Position numbers and translations under genes: made by a program. Below are positions 2,656 to 63,205 of a DNA stretch of 64,000 bases, one piece after another (positions within the stretch are counted from its first letter, which is position 1; every line of letters starts with the position of its first letter). Origin of the DNA: Nocardioides marinus (GTDB lineage Bacteria > Actinomycetota > Actinomycetes > Propionibacteriales > Nocardioidaceae); contig NZ_JACBZI010000001.1 of NCBI RefSeq assembly GCF_013408145.1, positions 3,362,001-3,426,000 on the forward strand, in the 5' to 3' direction. Under the pieces are notes generated by a model, which saw only the letters and a list, made by a program, of their open reading frames with translations, did no database searches and was not told the origin of the DNA.

Positions 2656-2913
2656 GGTGGTCGAACTGCGAGGAGCGCCAGCGACGAGCGGGCCCCCCGG
2701 TGGTCGAGCAGCGAGGAGCGCCAGCGACGAGCGGGCCCTCCGGTGGTCGAGCAGCGAGGAGCGCCAGCGACGAGCGGGCCCTCCGGTGGTCGAGCAGCGA
2801 GGAGCGCCAGCGACGAGCGGGCCCCCCGGTGGTCGAGCAGCGAGGAGCGCCAGCGACGAGCGGGCCCCCCGGTGGTCGAGCAGCGAGGAGCGCCAGCGAC
2901 GAGCGGGCGTCGA
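2656..2913 (+). repeat. Six-copy tandem array of a 43-nt dispersed repeat
   Basis: Units begin at 2656, 2699, 2742, 2785, 2828 and 2871, an exact 43-nt period. Each begins GGTGGTCGAGCAGCGAGGAG and continues CGCCAGCGACGAGCGGGCCC. The first copy differs slightly (GTCGAACTGC). Copies differ mainly at one C/T position near the end (CCCTCC or CCCCCC). The array ends in GTCGAGACCACC, close to the reverse complement of the unit's start. There are no spacers, so it is not a CRISPR. It fills the space between the divergent thiB and esterase genes. Relatives occur at 17625-17815, and the first 10 nt recur at 7043. Confidence 0.95.
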
Positions 2914-57623: not shown

Positions 57624-57699
57624 TCGAACCGGCGTATTGATACGCCGGCTCGGCGGGGACGGCGGGTCGAACCGGCGTATTGATACGCCGGCTCGGCGG
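57624..57699. repeat. Two tandem copies of the CCGGCGTATTGATACGCCGG palindrome
   Basis: Perfect palindromes at 57629-57648 and 57672-57691, 43 nt apart, each within a 38-nt unit beginning GTCGAACCGG and ending GCTCGGCGGGGAC. The two units are identical. The third copy in the window is at 14268. They lie between divergent-facing 3' and 5' ends (dipeptidase stop and molybdenum-enzyme start) and have AT-rich centres in GC-rich DNA. Confidence 0.9.
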
Positions 57700-59503: not shown

Positions 59504-60436
59504 TCAGAGCGCCTCGAGGATCGTCAACGTGGTCGCCCAGGCGTCCGAGGCGGGGTCGATGACCGTGAAGTGGTCGCCCTCGACCTCCACCAGGCGTGCA
59601 GTACCGCCGGCGGCCGTGGCGGCCTCCACGTAGGAGCGGGACTGGCTGATCGGCACGATGTCGTCGCCGGTCGCGTGGACGCACCACACGGGCACGGGCA
59701 GCGGCACCTGCTGGGCCGGGTCGATGCCGGCGTGCTCGCTCGTGGGCACGCCGCCGACGATGCCGGTGACCGTGCCGGGGCCGCCCAGCCCGGCGGTGTA
59801 CGCGCCGCGCAGGTCCAGGACGCCGGCCTGCGACACGACGTGGGTCAGCAGGCCCTGCCCGCCGGCCCAGGTGGCGAGGTGGCCGCCCGCGGAGTGGCCG
59901 ACACCGACGACAGGGACGGTGCTCGGGTCGACCCCGAGCACGAGCTCGTCGAGCTCCTCGATCGCGGCCCGCACGTCCTCGAAGGTCTCCGGGTTGCCAC
60001 CGCCACCACCCGCGCCGTTCCCGACGCGGCGGTACTCGATCGCCCAGGTCGCCCAGCCCTGCTCGACCAGGCTCGGCACCAGCGGACGGGCGTACTCGAT
60101 GCCGTAGGCGGTCTTCCAGAACCCGCCGTGCACCACCACCGCCACCCCGCGCGGGACGCCCGCGGGCAGGGTGAGCTCGCCGAACTGGCTGGGGTCGCTG
60201 CCGTAGTCGTGACGCCGTGGCTCGCGCACTCCCTCGGGCATGGGTGGCACCTCCTCGGGGCCGACGCCCCCACGGACCAGCACGGTCAGGCCGACAGCGG
60301 CCGCTCCCAGGGCCGGGAGCGTGAGGAGGGTACGACGCGGCATCCGGGGCACGCGGGTGGTTCGGTCCCATGGGGCGGGTCGGATGGGTCCAGGCGTCCC
60401 GTCGCCGGGGTCAGGACCAGTCGCCGGATCGGCCAC
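59504..60436 (-). CDS. Membrane-anchored or exported alpha/beta hydrolase
   Basis: A 310-aa esterase-like protein. After a 30-residue head comes a hydrophobic segment (RRTLLTLPALGAAAVGLTVL), so it is exported or anchored. Catalytic blocks: oxyanion VVVHGGFWKTA, nucleophile GVGHSAGGHLATW, acid HATGDDIVP and histidine EGDHFTVID. It belongs to the BD-FAE/carboxylesterase group. GTG 60436 has a good ribosome site inside the end of arfB (26-nt overlap); ATG 60343 would place the signal at the very N-terminus and is a serious alternative. The substrate is unknown. Confidence 0.82.
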   Translation of the reverse strand: MADPATGPDPGDGTPGPIRPAPWDRTTRVPRMPRRTLLTLPALGAAAVGLTVLVRGGVGPEEVPPMPEGVREPRRHDYGSDPSQFGELTLPAGVPRGVAVVVHGGFWKTAYGIEYARPLVPSLVEQGWATWAIEYRRVGNGAGGGGGNPETFEDVRAAIEELDELVLGVDPSTVPVVGVGHSAGGHLATWAGGQGLLTHVVSQAGVLDLRGAYTAGLGGPGTVTGIVGGVPTSEHAGIDPAQQVPLPVPVWCVHATGDDIVPISQSRSYVEAATAAGGTARLVEVEGDHFTVIDPASDAWATTLTILEAL

Positions 60437-60833
60437 GCTTCACCTCGCCACGACGCTTCTTGGCATCGAGGCGACGACGCTGTGAGCCGCGGGTGGGCTT
60501 CGTGGGTCGCCGCTTCGCAGGCGGCGGGCCGGCCGCGCGGCGGACGAGCGTCGCGAGGCGCTCCCGCGCGGCGCGGCGGTTGGCCAGCTGGGTGCGGTGC
60601 TCGGAGGCGGCCACGGTGATCACCCCGTCGACCAGTCGGCCGGCCAGCTGGTCGAGCACCCGGCGGCGTACGTGGTCGGGGAGGGCGGAGCCCGCGACGT
60701 CCCACACCAGCTCGACGCGGGAGTCGGCGGTGTTGACGCCCTGCCCGCCCGGCCCCGAGGACCGGCTGAACCGCTCGCTGAGCTCGGACCCCGGGATCAC
60801 CAGGGTCCGGGTCACGGGCAGGTCGTCGGGCAC
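60411..60833 (-). CDS. arfB: Alternative ribosome-rescue factor ArfB (YaeJ)
   Basis: A 140-aa peptidyl-tRNA hydrolase that frees ribosomes stalled without a stop codon. The catalytic GGQ is intact (SSGPGGQGVNTADS, residues 29-31). The basic C-terminal tail that enters the empty mRNA channel is present (KRRPTKPTRGSQRRRLDAKK). Length and layout match ArfB rather than a full release factor. Its end overlaps the next gene by 26 nt. Confidence 0.95.
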   Translation of the reverse strand: MPDDLPVTRTLVIPGSELSERFSRSSGPGGQGVNTADSRVELVWDVAGSALPDHVRRRVLDQLAGRLVDGVITVAASEHRTQLANRRAARERLATLVRRAAGPPPAKRRPTKPTRGSQRRRLDAKKRRGEVKRGRSGDWS

Positions 60834-60857
60834 CGGTCCATCATCGGGAGCCCGGAG

Positions 60858-60950
60858 CCGGTTTCACCACCCGGGTGGTGAAACCGGCGCTTGTCGACCG
60901 GAACTTCATGAGACAAGCGGCAGTTTCACCACTCGGGTGGTGAAACTGCC
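60858..60950. repeat. Three consecutive hairpins with a shared TTTCACCAC core
   Basis: Hairpin 1 is a perfect 30-nt palindrome: CCGGTTTCACCACCC (60858-60872) and its complement (60873-60887). It is followed by CGCTTGTC (60888-60895), which pairs with GACAAGCG (60912-60919). Hairpin 2 is GGCAGTTTCACCAC (60919-60932) with GTGGTGAAACTGCC (60937-60950). The outer two share the core GTTTCACCAC / GTGGTGAAAC. The element starts 24 nt before the arfB start and ends 5 nt after the purL stop. Confidence 0.92.
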
Positions 60951-60955
60951 GGCCC

Positions 60956-63205
60956 TCAGCCCAGCGCAGCGGGGAGGGTGGCCATCCAGGCCGAGCGGAC
61001 CTCGAGGAGCGGCAGGTCGAAGAGCCCCTGCAGGTCCACCGAGTCACCGCCGGTGGTGCCGAGCTCGGTGACGGGTACGCCGTGGCGCGCGGCGAGGTCG
61101 GTCAGCCGGGCGGTGTCGCCGGCCGGCACGGTGACGAGCACGCGCCCGGTGGACTCGGAGAAGAGCGCGACGAACGGGTCCTCGTGGACCCCGGCGAGCG
61201 ACACCGAGGCGCCGGTCATCGACGGCAGCGAGGCCTCGAGCAGCGCCTGGGCGAGGCCGCCGTCGGACAGGTCGTGGGCGGAGGTCACGAGGCCGACGGC
61301 CTCGTGGAGCAGCGCGGCGAGGGCCTTCTCCCCCTGGAGCGAGAGCGCCGGCGGGCGGCCGCCGAGGTGGCCGTGGACGACGTGCGCCCACTCCGAACCG
61401 GAGAGCTCCTCGCGGGTCTCGCCGAGCAGCAGCACGGTCTCGCCGACCGTGGACCACGACGACGGGGTGCGCCGGGTGACGTCCTCGATGACGCCGAGGA
61501 CGGCGACGACCGGGGTCGGCAGGATCGCGGTCTCGCCGGTCTGGTTGTAGAGGCTGACGTTGCCGCCGGTGACGGGCACGCCGAGCTCGAGGCAGGCGTC
61601 CTTGAGGCCACGGCAGGCCTCGGCGAACTGCCACATCACCGACGGGTCCTCCGGCGAGCCGAAGTTGAGGCAGTCGGAGACGGCCAGCGGGGTCGCCCCG
61701 CCGGTCGCGACGTTGCGGTAGGACTCGGCGAGGGCGAGCTGGGCCCCGGCGTACGGGTCGAGCTTGGCGTAGCGGCCGTTGCAGTCGGTGGAGACCGAGA
61801 CACCGAGGTTGGTCTGCTCGTCGATCCGGATCATCCCGGAGTCGGCCGGCTGGGAGAGCACGGTGTTGCCGCGGACGTAGCGGTCGTACTGGTCGGTGAT
61901 CCAGGACTTGTCGCACAGGTTCGGCGAGGCGACCAGGCGCAGCACGGTCTCCCGCAGCTCCGCGGCGTCGGCCGGGCGCGGCAGCGCCTCCGCGGCGTCG
62001 GCCTGGAGGGCGTCCTGCCAGTCGGGGCGGGCGAAGGGGCGCTGGTACGTCGGGCCGTCGTGGGCCACCGAGCGCGGCGGGACGTCGACGACCCGCTCGC
62101 CGTGCCAGTCGATCTCGAGGCGACCGGTGTCGGTGACCTCGCCGACGACGACGGCCTCGACGTCCCACTTGGCGCAGATGGCCATGAACGCCGCGACGTC
62201 GTCGGGCTCGACGACGGCCATCATCCGCTCCTGGCTCTCGCTCATGAGGATCTCCTCGGGAGCCAGCGTGGAGTCGCGCAGCGGCACCCGGTCGAGCTCG
62301 ACGTGCATGCCGCCGTCACCGGCCGAGGCCAGCTCGGAGGTCGCGCAGGACAGCCCGGCGCCGCCGAGGTCCTGGATGCCGGCGACCAGGCCGGCGGCGA
62401 AGATCTCGAGCGTGCACTCGATGAGGAGCTTCTCCATGAACGGGTCGCCGACCTGCACCGAGGGCCGCTTGGCGGGGCCGTCGGCGTCGAAGGTCTCCGA
62501 GGCCAGCACGGAGACGCCCCCGATGCCGTCGCCGCCGGTGCGGGCGCCGTAGAGGATGACCTGGTTGCCCACGCCGGAGGCCTTGGCCAGGTGGAGGTCC
62601 TCGTGCTTGAGCACGCCGACGCACAGGGCGTTGACCAGCGGGTTGCCGAGGTAGGTGGAGTCGAAGACGGCCTCGCCGCCGATGTTGGGCAGGCCCAGGC
62701 AGTTGCCGTAGCCGCCGACGCCGGCCACGATCCCGGGCAGCACGCGGTGGGTGTCGGGGGCGTCGAGCGGGCCGAAGCGCAGCGGGTCCATCACGGCGAC
62801 CGGGCGCGCGCCCATCGCGAGGATGTCGCGGACGATGCCGCCGATGCCGGTCGCGGCGCCCTGGTAGGGCTCGACGTACGACGGGTGGTTGTGCGACTCG
62901 ACCTTGAAGGTCACCGCGTAGCCCTGCCCGACGTCGATGACGCCGGCGTTCTCGCCGATGCCGGCGAGCATCTTGCCGACCGGGGTCTCCTGGGGCAGCT
63001 CGCCGAACTGCTTGAGGTGCACCTTGGAGGACTTGTAGGAGCAGTGCTCGCTCCACATCACCGAGTACATCGCCAGCTCCGAGGAGGTGGGACGGCGCCC
63101 GAGGATCTCGCGGATCCTGGCGTACTCGTCGGCCTTCAGGCCGAGATCGGCCCAGGGCTGCTCGCGGTTCGGGTCCTCGGCGGCGACGGCGACGGTGTCC
63201 AGCAC
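60956..63205 (-). CDS. purL: Phosphoribosylformylglycinamidine synthase subunit PurL
   Basis: A 749-aa ATP-dependent synthase for the fourth step of purine synthesis (FGAR to FGAM). It is the small PurL type that works with separate PurQ and PurS. Landmarks: [43 protein letters not shown], and the second half with the matching AIR-synthetase-like fold ([36 protein letters not shown]). ATG 63205 start. purS and purQ are not in the window and may lie to the right. The three-hairpin element follows its stop by 5 nt. Confidence 0.97.

Follow-up and report, generated by a model that had tools for sequence, protein, structure and literature searches.

The three-hairpin element that separates purL from arfB in Nocardioides marinus is probably one solo copy of a dispersed family of palindromic repeats. 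This family is likely to be REPIN-like, its repeats being non-autonomous and depending on a nuclease that is predicted to act on them in trans, and we have good reason to place its parent locus at a single AbiEi-like/Vsr-type nuclease gene lying between two inverted repeat copies, the product of which would spread the repeats. Bacterial genomes commonly contain REPs and REPINs, whose known enzymes (RAYTs) are, to our knowledge, Y1 transposases. Somewhat less firmly, we favour the broader view that actinobacteria possess a second, independently evolved REPIN-like system, in which an AbiEi-like/Vsr-type homing-nuclease gene, itself framed by repeats and often syntenic, keeps and spreads species-specific palindromic repeats, nuclease and repeat dialect evolving together. 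The features of the window (the whole stretch of 64,000 nucleotides that was analysed) at the purL-arfB junction are the following:

60411..60833, minus strand: arfB, the gene downstream of the element, encoding an RF-1 domain protein
60856..60938, plus strand: match to covariance model R1, model positions 1-83 of 83 (G000:C1:3422856-3422938:+, 94.9 bits), obtained by construction since the model was built from copies that include this one
60857..60888, no strand: palindrome 1, a perfect 32-nt palindrome
60861-60884: core 24-mer of palindrome 1, GTTTCACCACCCGGGTGGTGAAAC, with 18 exact core copies in the genome
60888..60919, plus strand: central hairpin formed by arm 1 and arm 2, outer 8 bp paired, inner slots unpaired
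60888-60895/60912-60919: middle stem, CGCTTGTC/GACAAGCG
60890-60905: central hairpin arm 1, minus-strand motif AGTTYC-N4-GACMAG, slot GGTC
60904-60919: central hairpin arm 2, slot ATGA
60918..60951, no strand: palindrome 2, a 34-nt hairpin with 15-bp arms and a 4-nt loop
60923-60946: core of palindrome 2, GTTTCACCACTCGGGTGGTGAAAC, one change from GTTTCACCACCCGGGTGGTGAAAC
60956..63205, minus strand: purL, the gene upstream of the element, with AIRS and FGAR-AT linker domains

The element covers positions 60857-60951, 4 nt from the purL stop codon. The initial annotation had described three hairpins here, two of them with a shared core, and this architecture was recovered in full: a 32-nt palindrome and a 34-nt hairpin having GTTTCACCAC/GTGGTGAAAC in common, with a stem between them. 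The alternative pairing that it had proposed between the two palindromes is in fact the predicted minimum fold, a single long hairpin in which palindromes 1 and 2 pair over 35 nt (91% complementary). The predicted RNA folding energy of 60848-60960 is -75 kcal/mol; shuffled sequences average -40.15 (sd 3.84, z -9.08), and none of 200 was as low. Despite these hairpins, no T-run terminator was found at the element in a scan of both strands, and an Rfam scan of the element returned only miRNA models, far below cut-off. On these sub-threshold matches and the dispersed copies described below, a local riboswitch or other conserved local structure was rejected. The suggestion that the element marks an mRNA boundary keeps its positional part, as the element lies directly after the purL stop, and loses the terminator; the element may serve as a 3'-end structure in a secondary capacity.

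In the 4.11-Mb chromosome of N. marinus (genome G000), the core 24-mer occurs in 18 exact copies and at 29 places with at most three mismatches, and a reversed-pattern control matched at no place in the genome. The 29 places correspond to 24 elements, labelled E01-E24, the window copy being E20. Twenty-two of them align without gaps over 83 columns (alignment A1, made without E10 and E22, which are atypical or consist of the palindrome only) and display a common layout: a palindrome is accompanied by a central hairpin, built from two arms in inverted orientation, and by a third arm that is a direct repeat. The arm form AGTTYC-N4-GACMAG occurs 29 times in the genome, with two matches in the control. 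Most copies carry a single arm 3; in some, including E20, a second palindrome stands at that site instead.

The palindrome core is nearly invariant among copies, with 99.1% of cells paired, and the N4 slots draw on a small vocabulary (GGTC, RYGA types, AGCA). The slots of arms 1 and 2 agree in four of 22 copies, with 7.5 expected by shuffling and about 2.7% of shuffles as low, and the percentage of paired cells observed in the central hairpin was reached by 495 of 500 shuffles. Pairing worse than in shuffles and low slot agreement indicate that the central hairpin is not maintained as an RNA stem by compensating changes, and this candidate structure found no support. No invariant columns corresponding to a GTAG/GTGG or CGTC foot lie beside the palindrome in the 22 aligned copies. 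A RAYT was likewise dismissed as the enzyme, since a search of the genome for the Y1 transposase (PF01797) gave no match. The distribution of the elements along the chromosome is uneven, 22 of 24 lying in one half of it, an imbalance equalled in 13 of 20000 uniform draws.

According to a simple codon-based gene caller, 15 of the 24 copies lie between convergent genes, eight between co-directional genes close to the upstream stop, none between divergent genes, and one (E23) within a called gene. The background, a sample of 129 gene pairs of the same genome that includes the element junctions, comprises 23 convergent, 85 co-directional and 21 divergent pairs, giving a convergent excess of 15/24 over 23/129 (binomial about 1.5e-6). 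E23 is an in-frame copy in the linker of a chorismate-binding enzyme (L018:3894-5264, minus strand), whose orthologue in genome G172 has a different, longer linker holding another palindrome.

Copies directly after stop codons, 15 of 24 between convergent genes, and a palindrome core that is almost always paired are also what one would see if these were bidirectional terminators or mRNA-end stabilisers homogenised by gene conversion, with no mobile element involved, and the plain 28-nt GC hairpin found at the E12 site of the nearest relative points the same way. We hold this explanation to be quite improbable: the element has no T-run, its central hairpin pairs worse than shuffles, one copy stands in frame inside the chorismate-binding enzyme gene, and the framing of one nuclease family by two inverted copies in many genera would be left unexplained.

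The exact 24-mer is absent from all 117 other genomes of the genus searched and from every stretch of the wider contig collection. Covariance model R1, built from the 22 copies, nevertheless matched the full-length 83-nt design in 98 of 215 Nocardioides genomes, and these diverged relatives rule out the reading of the family as unique to the species; the genus scan used stricter filters with at most 21 candidates scored per genome, and per-genome counts near 21 are therefore lower bounds. Among the matches listed, 27 come from other genomes and are mostly full-length with altered palindromes, the palindrome differing between species in what we call dialects. Twenty solo copies sampled in other species comprise six between convergent, 11 between co-directional and two between divergent genes, and one possibly within a gene, so the convergent bias is weaker there.

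The nearest genome found, G016, has 88% identity over the locus and lies outside the 98 genomes positive for R1. It carries no copy of the family at the E12, E15, E16/E17, E20, E21 and E22 junctions (the E13 site falls at a contig end and was left out). Apart from the hairpin at the E12 site, it has a 17-nt gap at E15, a short gap at E22, and another repeat family at E16/E17, E20 and E21. The initial annotation had offered an mRNA boundary, a protein-binding site or a small mobile palindromic element, and had regarded a sequence unique to this locus and deeply conserved in position as the mark of a local regulatory structure. With 18 exact core copies in the genome and none at the compared junctions of the nearest relative, the opposite pattern was found, and the mobile element is the favoured reading of the three. 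The search for repeats and empty sites that it had proposed was successful in its first part, revealing copies genome-wide, and less so in its second: no target-site duplication was seen at the compared junctions, none of them is a perfectly clean empty site, and in relatives the junctions are usually occupied by some other repeat or by a short hairpin of a different kind. Between purL and arfB, four related genomes have four different intergenic sequences, two of which belong to repeat families; one of these families is common to several genomes (30+24 places in G016, 39+43 in G000). The presence of unrelated repeat families at the same junctions in relatives suggests that these sites are general hot spots.

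In four genomes (G000, G033, G091 and G167), the list of R1 matches contains inverted pairs 1.1 kb apart, each framing a single reading frame of 311-317 aa. In G000 the framing pair is E16/E17 (C1:3087644-3088878), 335 kb from the window element, and the framing unit is absent from this junction in the three nearest relatives compared. The four framed proteins are homologous (43-47% identity to the first), and a profile scan of the contig collection with their alignment retrieved 52 loci in Nocardioides, Pimelobacter, Aeromicrobium, Williamsia, Gordonia, Hoyosella, Flexivirga, Cellulomonas, Pseudonocardia, Arthrobacter and other genera. At 51 of the 52 loci (L213 lies at a contig end and was left out), we took the 350 nt on either side of the gene and compared the upstream stretch with the downstream one in reverse complement. 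Inverted flanks exceeded the maximum of 1020 within-locus controls in 42 of these 51 loci; against 155 neighbouring genes, 43 lay above the 99th percentile and 32 above the maximum. The remaining nine homologous loci show no inverted flanks above the within-locus control, which counts against the preferred reading. In most loci with inverted flanks, the downstream repeat starts at most about 40 nt after the stop codon. A pair of R1 matches, upstream on the plus and downstream on the minus strand with palindromes outward, was found at 14 of the 52 loci, all in the Nocardioides group; distant genera have framing repeats of other sequence.

Flanking genes are common to 43 of 253 locus pairs, which form one large and one small group, indicating that the nuclease gene mostly stays put while the solo repeats disperse; the G000 unit has flanking genes in common with no other locus. 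That the gene seldom moves, part of the Nocardioides loci being syntenic, was also counted against the preferred reading; such behaviour fits REPtrons and not a classical transposon. Locus L189 has the same flanking genes as L180, L181 and L183 with their sides swapped and the unit reversed, as if it had been inverted between its own inverted repeats or inserted anew. In 35 of 51 loci (L169-L220), the 200 nt preceding the nuclease gene contain the heptamer TCCACAG (consensus GTTGTCCACAG), which we take to resemble a DnaA box; downstream it occurs in none of the 51, and the nuclease unit of G000 itself lacks it.

The framed protein has an AbiEi-like N-terminal half, followed by a C-terminal domain that, in the predicted model, resembles the Vsr-type homing nuclease I-Bth0305I. 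Matches to Pfam AbiEi_4 above its cut-off were obtained for all of the first four framed proteins; the same domain is found in 29 of 41 homologues, and all five proteins scanned with PADLOC match its AbiEi models. The nuclease domain stays below the Pfam cut-off in all four first proteins, with sub-threshold MTES_1575 and DUF559 matches in one of them, and its assignment therefore rests on fold. In the AlphaFold model of the L171 homologue (mean pLDDT 92.2), residues 199-311 match I-Bth0305I (Z 12.1, 96 aligned residues, 2.4 A) and also, with Z 11.2, an endonuclease-like protein from Neisseria and, with Z 9.9 and 8.6, Vsr. For residues 1-194 the fold match is to the AbiEi antitoxin (Z 10.9, 178 residues aligned, 6.6 A); the first eight Foldseek matches include Rv2827c, AbiEi, Vsr and I-Bth0305I. 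In alignment A3, which comprises 41 of the 52 homologues, the invariant residues are G42, E202, D235, E246, D248, G249, K252, Y253, E270, K271, R273 and R287. The family profile found no match among PDB sequences or in phages, and a single weak one (28% identity) in plasmids.

Antitoxins of the AbiEi type recognise inverted repeats within the promoter from which they are expressed. The protein might accordingly be a regulator that controls its own gene through the framing repeats and has its regulon at the solo copies; the predicted antitoxin fold of the N-terminal half and the PADLOC matches speak for this. This arrangement seems improbable to us, as the second framing copy lies downstream of the gene, just past the stop codon in most loci, and the solo copies lie at 3' ends, none of the 24 being found between divergent genes, the arrangement in which promoters are shared. 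Moreover, G000, G033, G091 and G167 have a single long reading frame between the repeats and no AbiEii toxin partner in the unit, and the conserved nuclease residues would find no explanation.

The two repeats of a locus resemble each other far more than those of different loci. Over 20 of the 23 Nocardioides-group loci (L170, L185 and L189 were dropped because a palindrome is missing or unclear), the framing palindromes differ on average at 1.1 of 24 positions within a locus and at 7.9 between loci, and none of 10000 permutations was as low. In seven syntenic loci, the mean difference is 5.3 between species and 0-2 within a locus, which indicates that the two framing copies evolve in step while their location is conserved. 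The solo copies, taken from the best R1 model scores, have the dialect of the framing copies in nine of nine palindromes in G091 and eight of eight in G167, and in G033 the 13 solo palindromes are variants of one sequence. A transposase or host recombination might instead move the repeats, the nuclease gene being cargo or a resident suited to the same sites; the unrelated repeat families at the same junctions in relatives would agree with this. We judge it unlikely, given that repeats of different sequence frame one and the same nuclease family in several genera and that the two framing copies change together.

The nuclease is the probable agent. The repeat would be recognised by the AbiEi-like part, the nuclease domain or both; on the model of Vsr-type homing enzymes, the nuclease would then cut or nick the DNA, and repair from a repeat-bearing template would carry the repeat to further sites. 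Such insertions are presumably best tolerated at the 3' ends of genes, most of all between convergent genes.

REPIN/RAYT systems (REPtrons) are the closest known parallel, and passages in PMC6006769 and PMC8049555 describe a framed gene, dialect matching, and a stable gene with dispersed repeats. The present family likewise has short palindromic extragenic repeats in many dispersed copies (24, of which 23 lie outside called genes), an inverted pair of the same repeats on either side of one gene (in G000, G033, G091 and G167), matching dialects, and a gene largely stable in place. In contrast, its enzyme is predicted to be an AbiEi-like/Vsr-type PD-(D/E)XK protein and not a Y1 HUH transposase, and its repeat is longer (a palindrome with two or three arms, 83-95 nt in all) and lacks a GTAG or CGTC foot. 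As it would work in the manner of REPIN/RAYT and lacks the defining Y1 enzyme, we did not file it under that class. I-Bth0305I and other Vsr-type homing endonucleases appear to share the catalytic-domain fold, in which the present family has the invariant acidic residues E202, D235, E246 and D248, but here the gene lies between two inverted palindromic repeats and not in an intron or intein, and the DNA-binding half is AbiEi-like. The AbiE type IV toxin-antitoxin systems have the AbiEi fold in common with the N-terminal half; however, the second gene (AbiEii) is missing from our unit, and a nuclease domain is fused instead. The CGTC-tagged REPs, in the passages of Di Nocera et al. 2013 (PMC3733652), are also dispersed palindromic repeats without a RAYT, some of them in genes, and have no dedicated enzyme assigned there, as is the case for some palindromic repeat families, whereas one is proposed here and the CGTC tag is absent. 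With regard to IS elements and MITEs, inverted ends were observed at the framed loci, and no target-site duplication was seen at the compared junctions, none of which is a clean empty site. Intrinsic terminators share the GC-rich hairpins, but not the T-run.

In the open-licence literature, we found no description of a link between AbiEi/DUF559 genes and repeats. If the role of the nuclease is shown, the system would form a separate class, and the same way of life would have evolved twice with unrelated chemistry, through a Vsr-type nuclease with an AbiEi-like domain in Nocardioides and other actinobacteria and through RAYTs. A protein family now annotated mainly as AbiEi antitoxin would gain a function, and specificity studies a natural pair of enzyme and changing recognition sequence.

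Further repeats were observed alongside this family. A family with core CGCTGGCGCTCSTCGC occurs at window positions 2658-2898 and at 82 places genome-wide, in tandem arrays with a period of about 43-45 bp; it is common to several related genomes and, in the nearest relative, occupies sites of the present family. The second of the purL-arfB intergenic repeat families, the 22-bp-spaced tandem family TTCGAGSGTGASTCGGC, is found at 59 places in G037 and 32 in G172 (L073-L081 and others) and is near-absent from the four other genomes searched. Finally, two palindrome-like sequences of 28 nt with core CGGCGTATTGATACGCCGG lie in inverted orientation to each other at window positions 57625-57652 and 57668-57695 and perhaps represent a further repeat family.
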